Part shown: positions 1 through 16,819 of the stretch, piece after piece
Position numbering within the stretch: the first letter of the stretch is position 1
Layout of the letters: every line of letters begins with the position of its first letter
NCBI GenBank assembly: GCA_016288675.1
Contig: JAEELC010000149.1
Span: 1-20,670, forward strand
Source: Acholeplasmatales bacterium
GTDB taxonomy: Bacteria > Bacillota_I > Bacilli_A > Acholeplasmatales > Anaeroplasmataceae
DNA length: 20,670 nucleotides
Reading direction: 5' to 3'
The notes under the pieces: model-generated
What the model saw: the letters and a program-made list of their open reading frames with translations, nothing else
The model's database searches: none
Told to the model about the DNA's origin: nothing
Program-made: the position numbers and the translations under genes

Positions 1-697
1 CATTCTTTTTAGCAATTTGAGCAGCTAAATTTAACGCATAAGCAGACTTACCCATTGCAGGACGAGCTGCCAATATTATAAGATTACCATTTTGTAATCC
101 AAATGTCAATTTATTTAAGTTGTCAAATCCTGTATCCAAGCCAGTAACTTCACCAGAATCTTGTGCCATCTTATTTGTATTTTCATAAACAGTATTTGCA
201 ACTTCAGCAAGTGTTCTAAATTCACTAGTTTGTCTATATTGAGTTAATTCAAACACCTCTTTTTCTACAGCTTCTAGATAAGCATCACTTGAAAGAGATA
301 AGTCATAACCTTGTTGGCTTAATTTTGATAAACTATCAATAGTTTTTCTCTTTAATGCAGAATTACGAACCAGTGTAATATATGAATCAATATTTTGGCT
401 TGAATAAGAAAATGTTAAAACTTTATTTAAATAATCATATCCACCAGCATCTTCAAACTTGTTCTTTTCAACAAGCTTAGATACAACAAGCTGAATATCA
501 GGAACAGTATTTTCTCTCTTAAGGTCTAAAACTGCCTGATAAATCAGGCGGTTTTTTTGGTCAAAGAAATCTTCAATATTTAATGTATCTTGGCACACAT
601 TTAGTGCAGCAGGATCAATTAATATAGAGTTTAAAATACCAATTTCAGCTTCTAGGTTTGATGGAACAGTTTTGTTTATAACTTTATTGTTTTCCAT
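1..697 (-). CDS. dnaB: Replicative DNA helicase DnaB, N-terminal part (cut by window edge)
   Basis: The first 232 residues of the replicative helicase, which unwinds DNA ahead of the fork. I translated it from the ATG at 697. Residues 1-105 look like the helical N-terminal domain that binds primase and forms the hexamer collar. A linker follows, then the start of the RecA-like ATPase core. The Walker A motif AARPAMGKS is at about residues 210-218, as in other DnaB proteins. The gene runs off the left edge, so Walker B and the DNA-binding loops are not visible. A good SD (aggtgag) precedes the ATG. Only 10 bases separate it from the stop of the gdpP-rplI frame, so it is probably co-transcribed with it. 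The order gdpP-rplI-dnaB is conserved in Bacilli. Identity is very secure. Confidence 0.96.
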   Translation of the reverse strand, partial: MENNKVINKTVPSNLEAEIGILNSILIDPAALNVCQDTLNIEDFFDQKNRLIYQAVLDLKRENTVPDIQLVVSKLVEKNKFEDAGGYDYLNKVLTFSYSSQNIDSYITLVRNSALKRKTIDSLSKLSQQGYDLSLSSDAYLEAVEKEVFELTQYRQTSEFRTLAEVANTVYENTNKMAQDSGEVTGLDTGFDNLNKLTFGLQNGNLIILAARPAMGKSAYALNLAAQIAKKN

Positions 698-707
698 AAC
701 TCACCTA

Positions 708-1154
708 TTACTTTTGTTCAAGAACATTAACCTTAAATGAAGCAGTAATTGAATTACCTAAATCTACAGTAGCATCAAAGATACCTACGAAATCAATATC
801 TGCTGGTAGGTTAATCTTCTTCTTATCAATGTGAACACCAGTTTGAGCTTCAAATTCTTCAGAAATTTGTTTACTAGTAATGTGTCCAAATGTCTTACCA
901 TCAGCACCAACCTTGATGTATACATTAATAGACTTAGTTTCAATTTCTTCTTTTAATTTATTTAATAGCTTTAGATGATTTTCTAAATCAATTGCTTCTT
1001 GAGCCTTACGAGCTTCAATTTCTTTTAAATTTTCATCTGTAGCTTCAACAGCAAGTGAATGTGTTAATAAGTAATTAGCATAACCATTAGCTACATTAAT
1101 AATGTCATCCTTTTTACCTCTACCTTTAACATCACTAAGTAATATAACTTTCAT
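708..1154 (-). CDS. rplI: 50S ribosomal protein bL9, possible independent product from an internal start
   Basis: The last 148 codons of the GdpP frame encode a full-length bL9 (the family is about 149 residues). bL9 binds 23S rRNA at the base of the L1 stalk and helps keep the reading frame. The N-terminal RNA-binding domain has the conserved glycine/lysine-rich start and the GYANYLL region. A central helix ([20 protein letters not shown]) leads to the C-terminal domain with the GKTFGHIT segment. The ATG at 1154 is in frame with the upstream enzyme and has its own SD, ggagg, at 1167-1163 with an 8-base spacer. Free bL9 could therefore be made from the same mRNA as the fusion. Whether one or both products exist cannot be told from sequence. 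Confidence 0.8.
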
Positions 1155-3131
1155 TTTTTCATCCTCCGAAACATCATCATTTTCTCTTCTTAAAATTTCT
1201 TTTAAGTCATTATAAGTATCATTAATAGATTTATTAGGAATTTGCGTTGCAGCACTATTTAAGTGACCACCACCACCCATTTCTTCCATAATTAATTGAA
1301 CATTATATGTGTCTAAGCTTCTTGCAGAAACACCAGCCATACCATTATCTAGAATACCAATTGTAAAACTAGCTTTGATATTGTCAATAGTAAGTAATCT
1401 TTCTGAAATCTTTGCAAGTAAACTTCTATCATGAATTGGTTCTTCTAAATCCAAACGTACAATTGCAAAATCATCTAAGAAGCGTTCTGCCTTTAATACT
1501 GCTTCAGCAATATTAACTTCAGTCTTTAAATCTTCACGTAACAATTTACGTACAAATATCATGTCAGCACCTAATTGACGTAAAATAGCTGCAGCTTCAA
1601 ATGTACGAGTACTTGTACGGAAAGTAAAGTTATTAGTGTCAATAACCATACCAGAAAGTAATATTGAAGCTTCAAGTTCAGTAAACTTGATATCCTTGTT
1701 GTAGAACGATAGCATTTCACTAACAAGTTCTACAGCACTTGAAGCATAAGATTCAATATAAGAGAATATCGTATTTTCAAATCCGATTTCTCCACTTCTA
1801 TGATGATCAATAACACATACATTTTTAATTTTCTTATAAAGTTCTGTATAACACATAATAGTTGGAGATTGAGTATCACAAATAACTAATAATGAATTAG
1901 CTTTATAATCAACATCCTCAATTTGAATCATATTTTCAAATAACTCAGGTTCCTGCTTACGAATAGTATCAATAATACGACCAGTAACCTCATCTAAATG
2001 CTTTAAGTCTAAAACAATCTTAGCTTCTTTGTTACTAGACATTGCCATCTTTAATACACCTAACATACTACCAATACAGTCTGCATCAGGCATAACATGA
2101 CCTGTAATATAAACATTTGTAGCATTTTCAATAGATTCCTTTAGAGATTGTGCCATTAAACGAGCTTGAACTAAAGAGTTCTTTTCTAAGGCATTAGTTT
2201 TACCTCCAAAGTATTGAATTGCTTCATTTTGAATATTAATAACAGCTTGGTCACCACCACGACGTTCTGCTAGGTCTACCGCAGATTGAGCTAATGATGC
2301 AAGTTCATTACTTGAAACATCATAACAAGCAATACCAATAGAAACACTTGTTCTTAAGTGGTTCTTAACTCCAACGTCACGCACTTTATTTAAGACATCA
2401 AATTTATTAGCTACCATTTTACGTAATGATTCTTTATCACATAAGATAATAATTCTATCATCATCAACACTTCTTAAATAAGCATCATACTTTTCAATAT
2501 AGTCAGAAATTTCACCTAAGAATTCACCACGAATACGAGAAGATTCTTGAACACCATAATCCTTTAATGCTTCTTCAAGGTTATCAATATTGATAACACC
2601 TAACGCAGTAATACGATTATCATACTTCTTTCTTAATTCCTCACGATTTGTTTCATTAAACATATAAATTAGATTATTATTAGGATCGTGATATACATCA
2701 TAATAATTCGAATCAAAAAATAAAGTAAATTTTTCATCATTAGATTTAACACGTTCAAATAATTGACTATCAATATCATCAATATTTGAATCAATAAAGC
2801 TTGATTTAAATATTGATTTAGCATTGTCATTACCCCATTTTACTTGATACATATCATCATATACGATAATAGCAATAGGAAGCTCATTAAATGCTTCATC
2901 TCCCGCTTGATTAACGTGATAAGAAATATTATTCCATACTTCAAGTCTATCTTGTAGCATTTTAATTCTAGATGTAGTATTACGATATGCAAACATAGTA
3001 AAGAAAATTGCACATACTGCAAAAGATAAAGCTGCAAAATACAAGAACGCAACTTGTTTTAATCTATAATATGTATAAATAAACACTACGGTTAAAACTA
3101 AACTAAAAATACCGGCTAAAAGTTTTTTCAC
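708..3131 (-). CDS. gdpP: GdpP-type c-di-AMP phosphodiesterase fused in frame to ribosomal protein bL9
   Basis: An 807-residue frame starting at GTG with SD agaggtgg. Residues 5-22 and 28-48 are two membrane helices. About 80-165 is a PAS-like domain. About 170-305 is a degenerate GGDEF domain, with VDDDR where GGDEF should be. About 335-500 is a DHH phosphoesterase domain with GHVMPDAD (344-351) and DHHR (442-445). About 540-655 is DHHA1 with GGGGH (619-623). This is the complete GdpP architecture; the family hydrolyses c-di-AMP to pApA and so controls potassium and osmotic balance and wall stress. Residues 660-807 are an entire bL9, beginning [15 protein letters not shown]. No stop codon lies between the two parts, and the linker is only a few acidic residues. 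If translated through, ribosomal protein L9 would be tied to a membrane enzyme. Sequence error at the junction cannot be excluded, but the frame is open throughout. Confidence 0.95.
1163..1167 (-). promoter_or_regulatory. Internal Shine-Dalgarno for the bL9 part
   Basis: GGAGG on the minus strand, 8 bases before the in-frame ATG at 1154 that begins the bL9 sequence. It lies inside an open frame, exactly where the separate rplI gene would begin in relatives. This decides that a second start is plausible. Confidence 0.75.
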
Positions 3132-3367: not shown

Positions 3368-3799
3368 CTATTTATCTAATTCCTTATTTAATTTATCATT
3401 TAATTTTTTTGAAATTCGTTTTGTAACAAAGAATACAGTTAAACAAATTGATAAATATGTGACTACAAACACACTTGTAAATATAATTATTGTTTGAAAT
3501 CTAAATGGAATCCAATTATTAATTAAATATCCACCAATATAAACAATATAAATAAATATCATTTGAAAAAATACACTTTTAGCCTTAGGCCATTCTTCAA
3601 TTTGATTAAATACTGAACTACCAGCTTGCACAAAAGCAATAATGTATGTAGATATAATTGCTAAAAATACAGTCGAAGCATTAAGCTTTAAATCTACTCC
3701 AGAAGCATCAATACATAAATATATTATTCCAGCAATAATTGGCCCAAATCCAGAAAACATTAAGCCTCTTTTAAAGAACTCTTTAACATAACAATTCAT
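3368..3799 (-). CDS. DUF3021 family four-helix membrane protein, partner of the LytTR regulator
   Basis: A 143-residue protein with four hydrophobic segments and the pattern KRGLMFSGFGPIIAGIIYL near its start, typical of DUF3021. The family is nearly always encoded next to a LytTR DNA-binding protein. Its biochemical role is not established; by analogy with LytTR regulatory systems of streptococci (HdrRM, BrsRM) it may be a membrane inhibitor of its regulator. That is inference. The frame is open back to 3826, but I chose the ATG at 3799 because an SD-like aaaggatgg sits before it and because the upstream ATG would overlap the LytTR coding end. The LytTR stop and this ATG are one base apart, suggesting translational coupling. 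It is the last gene of the operon. Confidence 0.85.
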   Translation of the reverse strand: MNCYVKEFFKRGLMFSGFGPIIAGIIYLCIDASGVDLKLNASTVFLAIISTYIIAFVQAGSSVFNQIEEWPKAKSVFFQMIFIYIVYIGGYLINNWIPFRFQTIIIFTSVFVVTYLSICLTVFFVTKRISKKLNDKLNKELDK

Positions 3800-3800
3800 A

Positions 3801-4232
3801 TTATATTCCCATCCTTTGCTTAACATTTTTTAATTCTCTTCTAGATATATAATCAATATATCCATTTTTAAAAATAACCTTTAAGCTTCCACCAATAGTG
3901 GACTCAAATTTCTTAATCTTTTTTTTATTTGCTAAACAAGATTGATTTAATTTAATGAATGCATTTAAATTCATTGCCTCTAATTGATATAATCTTTGCT
4001 TTATTTGATATTTCTTATCGCCAATTAAAGCAAACACTTTATTATTATCAGATATAAAGCATGAAACATCATCTATATTAATCTTAATTATTTCATCATT
4101 ATAATTACCTGTTAAATCAATATTAGATACAACACATAAATCTTCTATTTCATCTACTAATTTAGTTCTTTCTTTGGCGTATATTAATACCTTTTCTTCA
4201 TTTTCTTCTTCTATATATGTATAACACTTCAT
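3801..4232 (-). CDS. LytTR family DNA-binding transcriptional regulator (no receiver domain)
   Basis: A 143-residue regulator. About residues 46-140 form a LytTR domain, with the IKINIDDVSCFISDNNKVF strand region, the FIKLNQSCLANKKKIKKF segment and the C-terminal ISRRELKNVKQRMGI. The N-terminal 45 residues are not a response-regulator receiver, so it is not phosphorylated by a kinase in the usual way. LytTR proteins bind pairs of direct repeats spaced about two helical turns apart, and such a pair lies upstream of this operon at 5836-5865. It is preceded by SD aggggga and sits between the permease gene and the DUF3021 gene. The likely role is to activate its own ABC exporter operon. Family assignment is firm; target and signal are inferred. 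Confidence 0.9.
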   Translation of the reverse strand: MKCYTYIEEENEEKVLIYAKERTKLVDEIEDLCVVSNIDLTGNYNDEIIKINIDDVSCFISDNNKVFALIGDKKYQIKQRLYQLEAMNLNAFIKLNQSCLANKKKIKKFESTIGGSLKVIFKNGYIDYISRRELKNVKQRMGI

Positions 4233-4264
4233 AGGATAATCCCCCTATAAATAATTATACTATA

Positions 4265-5065
4265 CTAACAATCATTTTTTAATCTCTTATTAAAGAATAC
4301 AACTGTTAATGAACCAAATAATATTAAATAACAAAATAATATTATTAAGAACAATGCACCTCTATCACTAAATGTATAACAAATTAAATTACCTGTACTG
4401 TCAGGAAGCGTGTGAAGAGCCTTTGTTATTACTCTACCTAAATAAACTGATGGATAAAATGGTAAAGCCGTTGCCACATTTTCAAAATTTCCCATTGAAT
4501 CTAAAGGCATCCAGGCACCACCAATAACACCACAAAGTGAAATAAATATTGAAGTCACTGCAGGAGCTGATTTTTCATTTAATAAGGTAGCAAAAATCAT
4601 TCCCATAAAAATATCAATTGCCATCATTGGTGACATTTCAATTATTAATAATATACTACTTCCAAAACTTATAAATCCAGTTCCTGATATAGCTCCACAA
4701 ATATATCCTAATATTATGCAAATAATAGATTGGATTAATCCAATAATTATAAAAGGAATAAAATAACCAATTATATAATCATGGCTTTTCATAGGTGAAG
4801 TATATAATCTTTTTAAAAAGGCACTAGTCTTATCTTTAGATATCAATAGTGATGCAATTAGCATCAACATAGAGTATGAAAACATCATTATACCAGGAAT
4901 TAAGCTTTTCACCTCAAACACAGGTGTCTTTTCACCAGTGTATTTTAATATTATTTGAAACATCAAAACCATTAAGATAGGAAATCCTGCACAAAAGATA
5001 TAAATTAAAGGATCTCTTATCATTTCTTTTAAGTTTCTTTTCATAAATACTAAAGTCTTATTCAT
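4265..5065 (-). CDS. ABC-2 type exporter permease
   Basis: A 266-residue integral membrane protein with about six helices and the ABC-2 permease layout. There is a short cytoplasmic N terminus with an amphipathic stretch (FMKRNLKEMIRDP), a first helix, an extracellular loop, then the remaining helices, including the GGAWMPLDSM loop typical of this family. The LKRLYTSPMKSHDYIIGYF segment after helix 2 is the expected coupling region for the ATPase. Its ATG overlaps the TAA of the ATPase gene by one base, with SD ggagg inside the ATPase end, so the two are translationally coupled. Relatives export drugs, lipids or peptides; the substrate here is unknown. Confidence 0.9.
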   Translation of the reverse strand: MNKTLVFMKRNLKEMIRDPLIYIFCAGFPILMVLMFQIILKYTGEKTPVFEVKSLIPGIMMFSYSMLMLIASLLISKDKTSAFLKRLYTSPMKSHDYIIGYFIPFIIIGLIQSIICIILGYICGAISGTGFISFGSSILLIIEMSPMMAIDIFMGMIFATLLNEKSAPAVTSIFISLCGVIGGAWMPLDSMGNFENVATALPFYPSVYLGRVITKALHTLPDSTGNLICYTFSDRGALFLIILFCYLILFGSLTVVFFNKRLKNDC

Positions 5066-5778
5066 TAACTTATACCTCCTACAATTTTAATAAATGCTTC
5101 TTCAAATGAAGATTCATTCGCTTTCTGTTTTATTTCATCAATTGTACCTTCTATTAACAAGCTTCCTTTAGACATAATAGATACTCTATCACATAAAGCC
5201 TCTATTTCTTCTAAATAATGTGATGTTAATATAATTGTTATTTTTCCTTTGAATTTTTTAATTATATTCCAAAGCTCTCTTCTAGCAATTACATCAAGTC
5301 CTAGTGTTGGTTCATCTAATAACAATATTTTAGGCTTAGATATTAATCCTAATGCAATTGATAATCTTCTTTGATAACCTCCTGATAATGTTTTAGCTCT
5401 CTGATTTACTACATCACCTAAACCTAAATCATTAATTATTTGATTTAAATAATCATTATCATTTTGATCATAAAGCTCTTGGAAGAATTTTAAATTTTCC
5501 ATAACTGTTAAATTTTTAGCAATTGCAGTTTCTTGTGGAGAAATATCAATTAATCTTTTTATTTCATTCATTTGATTTTGATTATAGCCTGATACTATAA
5601 ATTCTCCACTGGAAGCATTTGTTAATCCTGATAATATTTTAAGTAATGTTGTTTTACCAGCACCATTAACACCAAGAAGACCATATAGTTCACCATCATT
5701 TATACTAAGCGATACATTATTTAAGGCCCTTAACTGTTTATAGTATTTATTTACATTATTCACTTTAATGATTTCCAT
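5065..5778 (-). CDS. ABC transporter ATP-binding protein
   Basis: A 237-residue nucleotide-binding subunit that pairs with the adjacent permease. Numbered from MEIIKVNN: Walker A GVNGAGKTT (36-44), Q-loop Q82, signature LSGGYQ (131-136), Walker B ILLLDEP (151-157) and switch His 187. All catalytic residues are present. The frame is open to 5847, but the start at 5778 is preferred: it has a strong SD (gaggtgag), and the extra 23 residues would be encoded across the promoter. It is the first gene of the four-gene LytTR/DUF3021 operon. The C terminus is short, without the long extension of DrrA-like proteins. The substrate is unknown. Confidence 0.93.
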   Translation of the reverse strand: MEIIKVNNVNKYYKQLRALNNVSLSINDGELYGLLGVNGAGKTTLLKILSGLTNASSGEFIVSGYNQNQMNEIKRLIDISPQETAIAKNLTVMENLKFFQELYDQNDNDYLNQIINDLGLGDVVNQRAKTLSGGYQRRLSIALGLISKPKILLLDEPTLGLDVIARRELWNIIKKFKGKITIILTSHYLEEIEALCDRVSIMSKGSLLIEGTIDEIKQKANESSFEEAFIKIVGGIS

Positions 5779-5797
5779 TTGTCTCACCTCAGTTTTA

Positions 5798-5803
5798 ATT
5801 ATA
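5798..5803 (-). promoter_or_regulatory. -10 element of the ABC/LytTR operon promoter
   Basis: TATAAT on the minus strand, 20 bases upstream of the ATPase ATG. No recognisable -35 is present (ATTTTT at the right distance), which suits a promoter that needs an activator. The LytTR-type repeat ends about 9 bases upstream of the -35 position. Confidence 0.65.
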
Positions 5804-5835
5804 TAAATTAAAATAATTAAAAAAATAGATTTAAG

Positions 5836-5865
5836 GTATTCGGTCATTTTATGATTGTATTCGGT
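5836..5865 (-). promoter_or_regulatory. Putative LytTR operator: perfect 9-bp direct repeat, 21-bp register
   Basis: ACCGAATAC occurs at 5865-5857 and again at 5844-5836 on the minus strand, with 12 bases between. A 21-bp period of direct repeats is the standard arrangement for LytTR dimers (AgrA, ComE, YehT). It lies just upstream of a -10 with no -35, in front of the operon that encodes a LytTR protein. Confidence 0.75.
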
Positions 5866-5953: not shown

Positions 5954-6196
5954 TTAGTCATTGTTAACGAATGGTAATAAAGCCATATGTCTAGCACGCT
6001 TAATAGCAACTGCTAAAGCTCTTTGATGCTTTGCACAAGTACCAGTTACACGACGTGGTAAGATTTTACCTCTATCAGTAACGAACTTCTTTAATAGATC
6101 AACATCTTTGAAATCGATGTGTTCGATCTTATTTGCATCGAAATAGCAAACTTTCTTACGACGGAAACCATTTCTGTTTTGACGCATATCTGCCAT
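5954..6196 (-). CDS. rpsR: 30S ribosomal protein bS18
   Basis: An 80-residue basic protein, full length for bS18, which binds the central domain of 16S rRNA together with bS6. Diagnostic segments are FRRKKVCYF, the [13 protein letters not shown] stretch, and [34 protein letters not shown] near the end (given here only as the family landmark; core is [12 protein letters not shown]). SD gaggagga precedes the ATG. It is the last gene of rpsF-ssb-rpsR; the gap to ssb is 17 bases. Both Cys residues seen in many zinc-containing forms are not all kept, so zinc binding is uncertain. Confidence 0.98.
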
Positions 6197-6213
6197 GATT
6201 ATGTTCCTCCTCT

Positions 6214-6657
6214 TTAGAATGGTAAATCATCATCCGAAATGTCTTCATTAAAGCTGTTGTCAACTTTAGGAGCATTTGTTTGATAATTTTGTTGTTGGTT
6301 GTTATTTGCATAACTTCCATTAGAATTTGTAGCTGTGTTTCTAGGTTGTAAATTTTGAACTGAATCACAAACAACCTCAGTAACATAGCGAGTTTGTCCT
6401 TGTTGATCTTGGTATGAACGAGTTTGAATACGTCCTTCAACACCAATCATATAACCTTTCTTAATATAGTTACCTAAAAAGTCTGCTTGTACTCTCCAAG
6501 CAACGCAATTAATAAAGTCTGCTTGACGTTCTCCATTTTGGCTTTGATATTGTCTATCTACTGCAATAGTAAATTGGCAATTGTTAATACCTGATGAAGT
6601 TTGTCTCACTTCAGGATCTTTAGTGATTCTACCGACTAATACAACACGATTAATCAT
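6214..6657 (-). CDS. ssb: Single-stranded DNA-binding protein
   Basis: A 147-residue SSB that coats single-stranded DNA in replication, repair and recombination. Residues 1-105 form the OB fold, starting [16 protein letters not shown] and including [10 protein letters not shown] and the [10 protein letters not shown] strand. About 106-137 is a disordered Asn/Gln-rich linker. The end, DISDDDLPF, is the acidic tip that recruits partner proteins. SD gaggt lies 8 bases before the ATG. It sits between rpsF and rpsR, the standard Bacillota arrangement that supplies the housekeeping SSB, so this is not a phage or plasmid copy. Confidence 0.98.
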
Positions 6658-6673
6658 TTAGAATACCTCGCAA

Positions 6674-6958
6674 TTAGTCTTCAAGAACGATGATGTCACG
6701 AAGAATTTTTTCTTCATAACCAACAATACGCTTGAATTCATTTACAGCTTGAGTATTAGCTTCAACTTCTGCCCAAACATAGAAACCTTTACGGTTACCT
6801 TGGATTTCATAAGCTAATTCCTTTAATCCTAATTCCTTAACAGCAAGAACCTTTGAACCGTTATCAGCGAAAATCTTGTTAACAAGAGCGATAACATTCT
6901 TAGTTGCTTCCTCATTTAAAGATGGATTTACAATGTACATAATTTCATATTTTCTCAT
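6674..6958 (-). CDS. rpsF: 30S ribosomal protein bS6
   Basis: A 94-residue bS6, which forms a dimer with bS18 in the 30S platform. The start MRKYEIMYIVNPSLNEEATK, the ELAYEIQGNRKGFYVWAEVE stretch and the NEFKRIVGYEEKILR segment are diagnostic. The frame is open eight codons further upstream to 6982, but the ATG at 6958 has a strong SD (aaggaggtg) and matches the family start. It is the first gene of the operon, with a promoter at 7029-7057 and a structured leader that includes its SD. The bS6-bS18 complex is known to repress this operon in many bacteria. Confidence 0.98.
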   Translation of the reverse strand: MRKYEIMYIVNPSLNEEATKNVIALVNKIFADNGSKVLAVKELGLKELAYEIQGNRKGFYVWAEVEANTQAVNEFKRIVGYEEKILRDIIVLED

Positions 6959-6968
6959 CTTTCGACAC

Positions 6969-7009
6969 CTCCTTATGGTCATTGGTCTAGCAACAGGCTA
7001 GACAAGGAG
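6969..7009 (-). promoter_or_regulatory. rpsF leader hairpin, candidate bS6:bS18 autoregulatory element
   Basis: In the minus-strand RNA, CUCCUU (7009-7004 complement) pairs with AAGGAG (6974-6969), the SD itself. GUCUAGC (7003-6997) pairs with GCUAGAC (6991-6985). The result is a 13-bp hairpin with a 5-base loop and a one-sided 10-base bulge, CAAUGACCAU. The known bS6:bS18 leader motif is a stem with a bulge carrying CCG. Here the bulge has CCA, so the match is by shape and place, not exact sequence. Confidence 0.6.
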
Positions 7010-7615: not shown

Positions 7616-8917
7616 CTATTTTTCCACAATTTCAGCGTCAATTGCTGTATCTTTAGCAGCAAATTCAAACTTCACCTTATATGTTAAACCACGAACATTT
7701 AATAATGAAGGAATATCAGCACAAGTTAAGCCTTCAGCAATAATTTCAGGATGAGAATATTGACCATTATGAATTCTTAGAGTTTTTGAATATCCTTCAC
7801 TCTTCTTTAAATCAAAGACAATTTCATCATTTGTTTCTGAAATATATTTAATTGTAATAGTCTTTGAATAATTAGCAGGAACACTAGCACTAATAGTTGT
7901 ATTAACTTCATAATCAGTCATATATTCACTAGCCTCGTTAGCTCTTGGAGCATTGCTCTTCTTACCAAATAATCTCATAAAGAAAATTATAATTAAATGC
8001 TTACCAACTAATGTATCACCAATGATTAAGATAATTGCTGCATAACCTAAAATCTTTAACACATTAAATAATGTAACATTCTTAGTAACATCTGCAGAAT
8101 CTGATTTACCAAATGAATAATCATTTTCAACAAATTCTTGAGTTAATTTGTTTAAATCATTATCGTTTGCATTATCTAATACCTTTTCATTATAAGTATT
8201 AATAAATGGGCTAGTCTCTTTCATAAACTTACTAGTTGTAGCTTCATCATAATTTAAGCTTAAGTTTAAATTAGATAAATCTAAAGAAATTGAACTAGCT
8301 TCACCGTTGCTGTTAGTTAAAGTTAGCTTATTTAATGTTTTAGCGTTTAAAGCTTCAAAAGAATGTTTACCAAATTGGAAGTAATAAAAGCCACAAGTTT
8401 GATAACTATAGAATCTATTTTGAACAATAGTAGCTTCACTTTCATCAAGTGTTGGGTCATTTTCCATATAACCAATACGATATAAATAAGAATCAGTAGT
8501 ACCATCATTTTTAATATAATCAAAAGATACACCAAACTTATTAAATTTTAATCCATCAGCATTAGTATAATCTTTACGATTCCATTCATCAGTTGGATTT
8601 AATAAAATACCCATATAGCCTTGTTCAATAAGAACCTTCTTATTACCATCATTATTTTCAGTTGTATATGTTGTAACAACCTCATATATAGCTAAGTGAG
8701 ATCCATCACTTAACTCTGAATCATAAATTGCATCATCATTTTGAAAACCAGTAATAAGCCTTGTAACACCTAAAGTATCGCCTGCTTCTGCACGAGCTTT
8801 CATTGTGTCAGCCACCTTCATTTGGCTACCATATGCAAAGAAATAAAAAGCAAGTGCTAATCCAATAATTACTGCAAAACCATAATATATAACAGATAAA
8901 AATGAAAACTTCTTCAT
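7616..8917 (-). CDS. Uncharacterised two-helix membrane protein, 433 residues
   Basis: I do not recognise the family. Residues 8-29 are an uncleaved-looking N-terminal helix after MKKFSF. About 30-280 is a predicted extracellular, Asp/Asn-rich domain with many Tyr and Phe in its middle (FYSYQTCGFYYFQFGKHSFEAL). About 286-316 is a second hydrophobic stretch (LGYAAIILIIGDTLVGKHLIIIFF). About 317-433 is a beta-rich cytoplasmic domain. The start has a strong SD (aggagga). Its own promoter and a downstream hairpin suggest it is transcribed alone or with the VanZ-like gene. Only two Cys are seen (in the ectodomain and C-terminal domain), and no catalytic motif is visible. Topology is inferred from hydrophobicity and flanking charges. 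Confidence 0.8.
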   Translation of the reverse strand: MKKFSFLSVIYYGFAVIIGLALAFYFFAYGSQMKVADTMKARAEAGDTLGVTRLITGFQNDDAIYDSELSDGSHLAIYEVVTTYTTENNDGNKKVLIEQGYMGILLNPTDEWNRKDYTNADGLKFNKFGVSFDYIKNDGTTDSYLYRIGYMENDPTLDESEATIVQNRFYSYQTCGFYYFQFGKHSFEALNAKTLNKLTLTNSNGEASSISLDLSNLNLSLNYDEATTSKFMKETSPFINTYNEKVLDNANDNDLNKLTQEFVENDYSFGKSDSADVTKNVTLFNVLKILGYAAIILIIGDTLVGKHLIIIFFMRLFGKKSNAPRANEASEYMTDYEVNTTISASVPANYSKTITIKYISETNDEIVFDLKKSEGYSKTLRIHNGQYSHPEIIAEGLTCADIPSLLNVRGLTYKVKFEFAAKDTAIDAEIVEK

Positions 8918-12922: not shown

Positions 12923-15900
12923 CTAATTATGATTACGAACAAATTGAATAAATCCTTTAGCATTTTCTTTACTAATTATTTCTCTAGTTACAGCTGTGCC
13001 GTTTTCTAAAATAATATAATTAGCTTTTTTATCTGAATCTTCTATATAATCAGGTTCTACATATATATTATATCCAGCAATTGCTGTTCTAGTATTATCA
13101 GCTAAACCTACTAATATAATACTTGAATCAAATATTGACTCATCACAATTCATTAGATCAACTGTATCATAATTAATTTCAAATGTATTATTTTCATCAT
13201 TTAATACAGTATTAGCAGCTTTAATAAAGTAATTCAATTCATTTGCAGTTAATAAATAAATTCTTTCCTCTGTTTTAAAGTTTTTATCTTCTTTTGCAAA
13301 TGTAGTTGTTGTATCAGGATCAGAAATTGGTGTACGAGATAATGCAATCTTATTACCAGATTCTAATATTTTATCAGTGACTATAGCTCTAATAATTTTT
13401 GAGCTAAAGAACTCAGAATCACTTGCGTTTGCTAATACGCTAGATGCATCAACAGAACTTGTACTTAATGAATCAGATGTAATTACATTCTTAATTGAAC
13501 CTACAAATTTATTAATTTCATCTTTAGAAATATAAGTATCCATAGTTTTTTGAGTATCAATTATAGATTGAGGTATAATTAAACTATTTGTATTAATAAG
13601 CTTCTTTGAAATTGTTAACCAAATAGTATCACTAACAAGTAATCTATCAGTATCTAAAGAATCTTTTAATAACACATCTTCTGTAAGTTTAGAATTATCA
13701 TTAATAACATTTAATAATTTAGTACTTGAAAGAGCATAAATAATATTTGCAAGTTCACCAGTATATGTAGTATCTTCCTTTACAACGTACCACTTAGATA
13801 AATTATTTTGTTCTTCTTTAGTAAATAAATAATCAGTAGCTACATTAATAGAATTTTCTTTATTTGCATTCTTAACAATAATATTAGCAAGAGTTGCTGA
13901 TACTACCTTACCTTCTAACGCCTTAAGTAGCTTTTCAGGATTATCATTATATCCAGCAAAATCATTGTTTTCAATGTTTTCTAATGAAACCTTAGTATTT
14001 TCATCAGTTACATTAAAGAATTCTTTAATAAATGATGCTAAATTACTAATTTCTTCATCAGATAATAATTCTTTATTCGAATCAGTTTTATATGCTTCAT
14101 CTGGTACAAACATTGAATCAGTCTTTGATATCTTATCTGTAATAGTAGCGTTTACTAAATCAGATTTAGATAAAATTGTTAATTCATCTTTACTTAATGT
14201 TGAAACTTGAGCTAAATAATCTTCTTGTTTATCACCATTTGAAATCTTAACAATTATATCTTTAAGATTTTTAAATACATCAAATAACTTACTCATTTCA
14301 CCATCATTGCCAATCCAATTAGCAATATTAGTATCACGAGTTTCATCAGTTAATTTTAAACTAGATGGTGTAACACAAACATTCTTAGTTAAGTCATAAA
14401 TAATGATAGATAAATTGGCCATGAATAAATCAGAATTCTTCATATCATCCATAGCAGTATTAGTCATTTCATTTACGATATCAATATAATCATTTGTAGT
14501 AAGATTATCATTCTTACTCATTTCAACAAAGCTATTTGAAATCTTATTAATTATTGATAATAAGACCTTAAATTCATTGCTGTTAATTTCCTTGTGCTCA
14601 CGAACAATTACATAGTCAATTGTTTCTCTTGCATAGAATTGGTGGTCATTTTCACCAATTTTAAAATTAGCATTTAAGATTACTTCACTAAGAAGAGCAT
14701 GAACTAAATCCGAATGATTTTCTTTTTTAGTATCAATCAAATCATAAATTGAAGAATCTGGACTAGTTACAGCATTTAATAATTCTTTAGTTTTATCGCT
14801 ATCTGATAACGATGTATCTTTGCTAGTTAAATAAACACTTGCTAATGTTTTAGCAATAGGTTTTAAGATCTTGTTAATTTCACCAGTATGTACTTTACCA
14901 TCAGAATCTGTATAAGTACCATAATTTGTATCAATTAATGTTAATTCTTTACCTTCCATAGCACTAGAAAGATACTCATTCATCTTTGAATTAAGAATTT
15001 CTTTAAATCCTTTAGTATTTAAGAGAATTGAACAAGCACTTGAATCAACTAACTTTGAGATTTGATTTAGAGCTTCACTATCATCCTTTTTAAAATCTGA
15101 AACAAAATAATCAATTAATTTGCTATAAGAAGTAATTGATTCATTTTCAATAGCTACAGAGACAATATAATCAAGGAAATTAAATAATGAATTAATTGTT
15201 GCTGTTCCATTATTATCATTACTTGTCCAGCTAATATTTAAGAAATCTTGATTTGGTGCTGAACTTTCAAGACTAAAGTTAGGATATTGCATTTCAAGTA
15301 TTTCAACAATAATTGTACTTATTAAGCTATTGAAATTATTATCACCATAGAAGCTTAGCTTAGATATATCATCAATTAAAACACCAAATATATGTCTATT
15401 ATTTTCAGATATAGCTTTAGCCTCTTTGCTTGAAAACTTTATGCTTAAATTTTCATCACTTGAATTAGATGACATTAAACTAGAAATCTTATCTATTTCA
15501 TTTTTATTCTTTAATACATCACACAATGTATTAAATGCAACTTGCATATTATTTCCATTAATTAAATCATCAAATTTAAGCGCATATTGTCCTAAAAATA
15601 ATTGATATATAACACGTTGACTAGCATTTAATTCAGCTTTAGCATCTTGGCTATCTGTGCTCTTATATCCATTGCAATAATATGATGCAAAAGCACGTAA
15701 GAAATCATTTAAAACATAGTTTAAGTTTTTAACATTCATTACTGCAAGTTCATCATTGATACGTTCTTCTAATGTTTTTCCATTAACAGTTGTATCACTA
15801 GTAATAAATGAAATCATTTCATCTGTTGTATAATTCTTATTAATATCATAGCCATATAATAAGAATAAATAAGCAATCTTAGATGTAGGAGCTGTAAGAG

Positions 15901-16819
15901 TGGCAATATCATCACTTAAATTTAATTTAACAGTATTAATGGTGCCATCTTCAGCCTCATATTCATAATCACAAGAAATTATCTTATCAGCAACAATTAA
16001 ATATAGAGGAACATTTTCTCTATATTTAACACTATTAAGCACCTTTCCTACACCAACTGTATTATATTTATCCATAATTTGGTAAACTTCTACAATTGGT
16101 TTAGATTGAGCATTAACATAACTTGTGTCATCAACATGTTCAGTTTTATCATTAGTAGTAATAAGAGCTATTGTTCCAAAGAAGCTCATAATAAATACAC
16201 CAACAATAAGACCTCTTAATGTTCCAACTAAGAAACCTAAAAAGCGGTGAGGCTTATAAGGCTTATCAACTTTACCTTCAGAGTACTTCTTATTAATTCT
16301 TTTTCTTCTTCTACCTTCTCTAAAGAAAATAAGGTAAAAGAAATATAGTACAAACTTAGCAGCAAAATAAACTATTATAGCAAGGAAGAAAACAATTAAA
16401 TGAAGAATCATAATACTTAAGTTAAATAATAGTTTAGCTGCTTGTTCTGCACTCATACCTTCGCTTGTTTTCTTAAAGAATTCTTGGTTAGACAAATATT
16501 CAGTTAAATAACCAGTAAATTTATCATGACTATCAACTGTATTAAAAACTTTTGCCCAACTAAAATTTTCTTGGTTAGGAATTTGTCTAATTGTAGTAAG
16601 TCCATCATTTACTAAATATGAATCAAAATCATATCTGCAAACTACAGCAAAGAAAACTGAAGCGACAATAATAGAGATTGTGAATGTAATAAAAAGTTTT
16701 AAAGATTTTGAAAAACCTCTTCTAGCACCAGCAATCATTTGCCATACTAAAATAAAAGTAAATAAAACCGTCGGTAAAAAACTTAGTAATGTAATATCAG
16801 AGGAAGTAAGTAAAAACAT
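12923..16819 (-). CDS. Giant membrane protein: CvpA-like N-terminal domain plus a ~1080-residue extracellular region
   Basis: A 1298-residue protein. Residues 11-30, 41-62, 133-166 and 193-221 are membrane helices. The last, RFLGFLVGTLRGLIVGVFIM, and the GARRGFSKSLK segment after helix 1 match the CvpA family, whose members are usually 160-200 residues. CvpA proteins are needed for colicin V production in E. coli and for envelope stability elsewhere; the mechanism is unclear. Residues 222-1298 are predicted extracellular, Asn/Asp/Ser/Lys-rich, without membrane helices, LPXTG or a recognised domain. From about residue 885 a loose unit of 75-90 residues recurs. SD aaagga precedes the ATG at 16819. 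It is transcribed alone and has a strong terminator. The CvpA assignment is good; the rest is unknown. Confidence 0.85.
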   Translation of the reverse strand: MFLLTSSDITLLSFLPTVLFTFILVWQMIAGARRGFSKSLKLFITFTISIIVASVFFAVVCRYDFDSYLVNDGLTTIRQIPNQENFSWAKVFNTVDSHDKFTGYLTEYLSNQEFFKKTSEGMSAEQAAKLLFNLSIMILHLIVFFLAIIVYFAAKFVLYFFYLIFFREGRRRKRINKKYSEGKVDKPYKPHRFLGFLVGTLRGLIVGVFIMSFFGTIALITTNDKTEHVDDTSYVNAQSKPIVEVYQIMDKYNTVGVGKVLNSVKYRENVPLYLIVADKIISCDYEYEAEDGTINTVKLNLSDDIATLTAPTSKIAYLFLLYGYDINKNYTTDEMISFITSDTTVNGKTLEERINDELAVMNVKNLNYVLNDFLRAFASYYCNGYKSTDSQDAKAELNASQRVIYQLFLGQYALKFDDLINGNNMQVAFNTLCDVLKNKNEIDKISSLMSSNSSDENLSIKFSSKEAKAISENNRHIFGVLIDDISKLSFYGDNNFNSLISTIIVEILEMQYPNFSLESSAPNQDFLNISWTSNDNNGTATINSLFNFLDYIVSVAIENESITSYSKLIDYFVSDFKKDDSEALNQISKLVDSSACSILLNTKGFKEILNSKMNEYLSSAMEGKELTLIDTNYGTYTDSDGKVHTGEINKILKPIAKTLASVYLTSKDTSLSDSDKTKELLNAVTSPDSSIYDLIDTKKENHSDLVHALLSEVILNANFKIGENDHQFYARETIDYVIVREHKEINSNEFKVLLSIINKISNSFVEMSKNDNLTTNDYIDIVNEMTNTAMDDMKNSDLFMANLSIIIYDLTKNVCVTPSSLKLTDETRDTNIANWIGNDGEMSKLFDVFKNLKDIIVKISNGDKQEDYLAQVSTLSKDELTILSKSDLVNATITDKISKTDSMFVPDEAYKTDSNKELLSDEEISNLASFIKEFFNVTDENTKVSLENIENNDFAGYNDNPEKLLKALEGKVVSATLANIIVKNANKENSINVATDYLFTKEEQNNLSKWYVVKEDTTYTGELANIIYALSSTKLLNVINDNSKLTEDVLLKDSLDTDRLLVSDTIWLTISKKLINTNSLIIPQSIIDTQKTMDTYISKDEINKFVGSIKNVITSDSLSTSSVDASSVLANASDSEFFSSKIIRAIVTDKILESGNKIALSRTPISDPDTTTTFAKEDKNFKTEERIYLLTANELNYFIKAANTVLNDENNTFEINYDTVDLMNCDESIFDSSIILVGLADNTRTAIAGYNIYVEPDYIEDSDKKANYIILENGTAVTREIISKENAKGFIQFVRNHN

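Follow-up and report, generated by a model that had tools for sequence, protein, structure and literature searches.

The window, that is the whole 20,670-nt stretch of DNA that was analysed (contig JAEELC010000149.1 of assembly GCA_016288675.1, position 1 being its first letter), carries a gene in which the c-di-AMP phosphodiesterase GdpP is joined in frame to the ribosomal protein bL9. Comparison with related genomes makes it highly probable that this is a two-product gene, created by one ancient loss of a stop codon, the internal start of which decayed where a second rplI arose. A Shine-Dalgarno sequence and a start codon at the first residue of bL9 are conserved within the single frame. The fused gene thus retains the start signals of bL9 and would most likely yield both GdpP-bL9 and free bL9.

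The fused gene

The original prediction that a complete GdpP and a complete bL9 share one frame with no stop between them was confirmed by the open frame and by the Pfam domains, which lie in order and each above its cut-off: PAS_GdpP (residues 73-159), GGDEF_GdpP (180-303), DHH (339-495), DHHA1 (568-647), Ribosomal_L9_N (660-705) and Ribosomal_L9_C (724-804). With two transmembrane helices predicted at 2-24 and 28-48, ahead of the PAS, GGDEF-like, DHH and DHHA1 domains, the GdpP architecture is complete. Residues H345, D349, D351, D419, D442-H443-H444 and D498 are present and do not vary among 34 aligned family proteins; these positions correspond to the metal site of the DHH domain in the GdpP family. 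The bL9 part scores 111.3 bits against TIGR00158 (cut-off 58.6), and its N domain contains the motif G-[YFH]-[AG], here within NGYAN. In a structure model of the protein (pTM 0.42), linker residues 653-657 have a pLDDT under 50 and are predicted to be flexible, which is in keeping with a flexible tether. Among the matches listed for the Acholeplasma laidlawii protein used as query, no solved chain spans both GdpP and bL9. The gene dnaB begins 10 nt past the fused gene.

Table 1. Features of the gdpP-rplI locus in the window.
Feature	Position	Strand	Remarks
Fused gdpP-rplI frame	708..3131	-	807 aa, no internal stop; GTG start at 3131, stop 708-710
GdpP part	1155..3131	-	residues 1-659: two N-terminal helices, PAS, degenerate GGDEF, DHH, DHHA1
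Internal Shine-Dalgarno sequence of rplI	1163..1167	-	GGAGG, 8 nt before the rplI ATG
Internal ATG	1152..1154	-	Met660 = bL9 Met1
bL9 part	708..1154	-	148 aa, both Pfam domains
dnaB (replicative helicase)	2..697	-	gene start only, clipped at the window end

Distribution of the fusion

The fusion itself is real and already catalogued. NCBIfam models it as NF011110/PRK14538.1, an equivalog named 'putative bifunctional signaling protein/50S ribosomal protein L9', which has the same domain order as the window protein from end to end. The latter scores 773.4 bits against a cut-off of 707, its residues 24-807 aligning to model positions 50-836. The model's name describes one bifunctional protein and is silent on an internal start or a free bL9. 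The GdpP and bL9 pairs that the original prediction proposed to look for in related genomes were found throughout, as this model matched in 41 of 41 genomes searched (the window's own and 40 relatives), with 40 exceeding the cut-off.

In the window's order, bL9 was found in 153 of 160 genomes, always in a frame of more than 230 aa, and this frame exceeded 780 aa in 145 of the 153. The remaining eight frames (G118, G057, G095, G097, G119, G075, G117 and G138) were considered as split genes and rejected: seven are clipped by contig ends, and that of G119 begins midway through GdpP, 104 nt into the contig, and continues through bL9. Second matches in G138 (76 aa, at a contig end) and G303 (35 aa) were not counted as second genes. 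The tiny one-contig genome G090 carries the fused gene twice, in two places and with equal scores (L143, L150).

That the fusion reflects faulty sequencing or assembly, or that this genome alone has lost the stop, is exceedingly improbable. The source is indeed a draft metagenome assembly in 193 contigs (1.24 Mb, listed as 74% complete), in which the fused gene is the sole bL9 match; the same open frame is nevertheless present order-wide and in complete one-contig genomes such as G043, G047, G052 and G061. Chance and assembly error are excluded because the frame is conserved, with the fused model matched in every genome searched and the bL9 frame open far upstream across the order. The read error near 1155-1175 that had been envisaged is thereby excluded as well; the fusion is no error, and the loss of the stop is not recent.

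Beyond the order, a class sample of 395 genomes, with family counts made by hand, contained the fusion in 29 of 30 genomes of family f16, 19 of 20 of f24 (two clipped by contig ends), 26 of 28 of f19, 13 of 15 of f9 and 3 of 4 of f23. The remaining genomes of these five families all lack a bL9 match. Separate bL9 frames occur in other families of the class among the matches listed or the loci fetched. In a phylum sample of 392 genomes, for which the share from outside the class is not given, 80 matched at E <= 1e-120 and all 80 belong to the window's class. One f9 genome of genus g89 (G238; L230), listed as 97% complete in 10 contigs and congeneric with three genomes with a duplicated bL9, lacks a bL9 match and, apart from a weak DHH match, any match to GdpP.

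Fused proteins are also found in NCBI records of Acholeplasma laidlawii, A. granularum, A. hippikon, A. equirhinis, Alteracholeplasma palmae, Haploplasma axanthum, Ca. Izimaplasma HR1 and ZiA1 and Ca. Xianfuyuplasma coldseepsis. In Acholeplasma and Ca. Izimaplasma the GdpP-bL9 protein of about 810 aa is named only '50S ribosomal protein L9' (P0122, P0130, P0242 and others), a name that hides a c-di-AMP phosphodiesterase, while some JGI records name it only 'cyclic-di-AMP phosphodiesterase'.

Start signals of bL9 within the fused frame

Junctions were taken from the fetched loci, identical 120-nt junctions being counted once. The counts omit L001, L023, L032 and L033 (duplicates of genes in other rows), L034 (unfused, from a record named Ruminococcus sp.), L137 and L139 (unfused), pieces at contig ends (G119, G057, G097, G095, G118 and others) and loci repeating genes already included. 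Among distinct fused junctions lacking a second rplI, all 162 have a start codon at codon 1 of bL9: ATG in 154, GTG in 7 and TTG in 1. In L146 it was moved one codon by hand, from AAA to the preceding ATG. GTG makes up only 3-16% of the valine codons in the seven genes with a GTG junction, which come from four genera.

The Shine-Dalgarno sequence was assessed in 146 of the 162 junctions by its duplex energy against an anti-Shine-Dalgarno string, which was assumed to be that of Bacillota in general rather than read from these genomes. The median was -9.5, compared with -10.2 in 21 unfused rplI genes, and the other 16 fused junctions ranged from -7.3 to -11.9. Ranked among the windows of its own gene, the sequence fell within the best 5% in 138 of the 146 and within the best 1% in 96; in 125 it was stronger than that of every other in-frame ATG or GTG of the gene. 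Eight junctions fall outside the best 5%, the weakest being those of the tiny-genome members G090 (-4.5) and G093 (-5.5). In the window gene the duplex reaches -10.0 kcal/mol, in the best 0.8% of the gene's windows, and only 0.33% of 300 synonymous recodings equal it.

Across all genes the observed mean was -9.6 against -7.0 after recoding, and 125 of 146 were stronger than their own recoded mean. At the 5% level, only 34 of 146 genes had at most 5% of recodings as good (median 18%). This test is weak overall because glycine or glutamate codons nearly yield the motif by themselves in families f3, f1 and f4, in which 37%, 24% and 85% of recodings were as good. The contrast between observed and recoded energies was large in f24 (-10.9 vs -3.6), f16 (-10.2 vs -4.7) and f9 (-9.9 vs -3.6). 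In addition, folding around the bL9 start is weak, 97 of 146 junctions lying in the weakest quarter of their own gene.

Two other readings of the junction have to be weighed here. In the first, only full-length GdpP-bL9 would be made, the ribosome-bound bL9 would be part of a membrane enzyme and the internal signals would be relics. The frame is indeed open in hundreds of family proteins, and each of the proteins listed, at least 120, carries all six domains; but relics would decay, whereas the internal Shine-Dalgarno sequence and start codon persist across families with different linkers, which makes this reading very unlikely. In the second, a single long protein would be cut by a protease at the linker to free bL9, for which the predicted flexibility of the linker could be invoked. 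Inspection by eye of the junction list revealed no common residue motif before bL9: linkers vary by clade (EGGEK, QEEKP, KEEQN, GGGGER) while the nucleotide motif is constant, so that conservation lies at the nucleotide level. Cleavage also leaves GTG or TTG at codon 1 unexplained, and we give this second reading a similarly small chance.

Genomes with a second rplI

A stand-alone rplI lies directly downstream of the fused gene in five genomes, G006 and G136 of family f1, both of which carry fused frames in the window's order, and G408, G414 and G420 of family f9. The f1 and f9 duplicates form two separate lineages on the GdpP tree, so that two events underlie the five genomes. These genomes provide a natural experiment on the division of labour within the fused gene.

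In the fused copies that stand beside a second rplI the Shine-Dalgarno sequence is lost (median energy -0.4, none of the five in the best 5%), and the three f9 copies also have no start codon, bL9 codon 1 being AAG in two of them and ACT in the third. The stand-alone partners all start with ATG and have a median energy of -8.0. In the same way, the G-[YFH]-[AG] motif, which was picked after inspecting the alignment and presumably contacts rRNA, is found in all 162 fused sole copies, all 25 unfused genes and all 5 of the stand-alone partners, whereas none of the 5 fused duplicates has it. A narrower first version, G[YF][AG][NG], was present in 127 of the 162 fused sequences and in 9 of the 25 unfused ones. 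A PROSITE-like bL9 signature was discarded, as it matched 0 of 25 sequences, unfused ones included. That the internal signals decay only where a second rplI exists speaks against their being relics, and their loss in the duplicates is equally left unexplained by proteolytic cleavage.

When matches among themselves are set aside, the best-scoring matches of the stand-alone copies are mostly fused copies from the same family or one next to it. This is consistent with an origin by tandem duplication without proving it. The bL9 part of the fused duplicates appears constrained, with signs of purifying selection in the close pairs (dN/dS 0.115 for G006/G136 and 0.32 for G420/G414) and not clearly in the distant ones (0.90 and 0.57 for the pairs with the more distant G408). 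These values come from a Nei-Gojobori script that is useful for close pairs only, several control pairs being saturated.

It is conceivable, if rather doubtful, that fused bL9 has a non-ribosomal role of its own in GdpP, perhaps in sensing or tethering translation, and that the two roles part when a second rplI appears. The two lineages that shed the internal start and the motif have nonetheless kept bL9 in frame and, in close pairs, under purifying selection, as such a role would suggest; against it stand the values of the G408 pairs and the fact that there are only two close pairs. Selection on the fused duplicate may also only keep the fold.

Origin of the fusion

The original prediction held that loss of the gdpP stop codon had created the fusion. 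This mechanism is supported, but the event is not peculiar to this genome and seems instead to be a single ancient one. In the unfused relatives G161, G453, G622 and G298 of the same class, rplI lies in the frame of gdpP and is separated from it by a single TAA, which precedes the ATG of rplI by one codon; the Shine-Dalgarno sequence of rplI is already inside gdpP, ahead of this in-frame stop. These loci show the state before the fusion. A tree built from the GdpP part of 75 rows has one branch that splits all 56 fused from all 19 unfused sequences with an SH-aLRT of 94, just short of the tool's 95 star. This topology fits a fusion that arose once and anciently without proving it.

Probable production of two proteins from one message

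Under the two-product reading, the in-frame gdpP stop between the Shine-Dalgarno sequence and the start codon of rplI would have been lost once, in an ancestor shared by ten or more families of the class. Ribosomes initiating at the GTG at 3131 would make the membrane-bound GdpP-bL9 of 807 residues, presumably an active c-di-AMP phosphodiesterase, while others would bind the Shine-Dalgarno sequence at 1163-1167 on the same message and start at the ATG at 1152-1154 to make free bL9 of 148 residues. The latter would be the only ribosomal bL9 found in this genome and would be expected to enter ribosomes. Where a second rplI arose later, the internal start would decay.

The fused product had been proposed to place bL9, and so possibly a ribosome, at a membrane enzyme. 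The Shine-Dalgarno sequence and start codon of rplI, overlooked earlier, survive in frame, and bL9 therefore need not be membrane-bound. Ribosomes might still possibly be held at the membrane enzyme by the full-length product; in two lineages the fused bL9 has no G-[YFH]-[AG] motif in its rRNA-docking domain.

A known analogy for such an arrangement is infB of E. coli, which makes IF2 alpha and beta by means of an in-frame internal start. In both genes one frame contains a further start codon, preceded by a Shine-Dalgarno sequence of its own, for a C-terminal product, which in the fused gene is a predicted one. Unlike in infB, the short product of the fused gene would be a whole ribosomal protein and the long one would add a membrane signalling enzyme. 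If both products are made, one message would determine how much of a ribosomal protein is made relative to a second-messenger enzyme, and such a coupling would extend across an entire branch of wall-less and related bacteria.

The gdpP-rplI(-dnaB) neighbourhood of Bacillota shares with the fused gene both the gene order and an rplI ribosome-binding site in the 3' end of gdpP, according to passages of PMC6398277, but there gdpP has its own stop and the proteins are separate. The same passages report that 69 bp of gdpP were retained in Streptococcus gallolyticus so that the rplI ribosome-binding site survives, and that gdpP is often coexpressed with rplI and dnaC. In a gdpP mutant of Mycoplasma bovis, bL9 mRNA is among the lowered genes in the part of PMC10720645 concerned. 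According to passages of PMC4592705, 23S rRNA is where the N domain of bL9 docks, and E. coli can do without bL9; free bL9 therefore need not be vital. Passages of an A. laidlawii proteome paper (PMC3139596) did not deal with L9. A full-text literature search, judged on titles and abstract text and with most subscription journals outside its coverage, returned no paper about the GdpP-bL9 fusion. Within the reach of these searches, it is new to read the fusion as a gene whose internal start is retained in sole copies and lost in duplicates.

Other genes of the window

Two proteins encoded on the minus strand, of 1298 aa (12923-16819) and 433 aa (7616-8917), are without any Pfam match. In addition, genes for a LytTR regulator, a DUF3021 membrane protein and an ABC-2 permease plus an ATPase (3368-5847, minus strand) sit between gdpP-rplI and rpsR-ssb-rpsF (5954-6982; these three were named by eye from their translations). 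This group resembles a cassette inserted in a ribosomal and replication operon.
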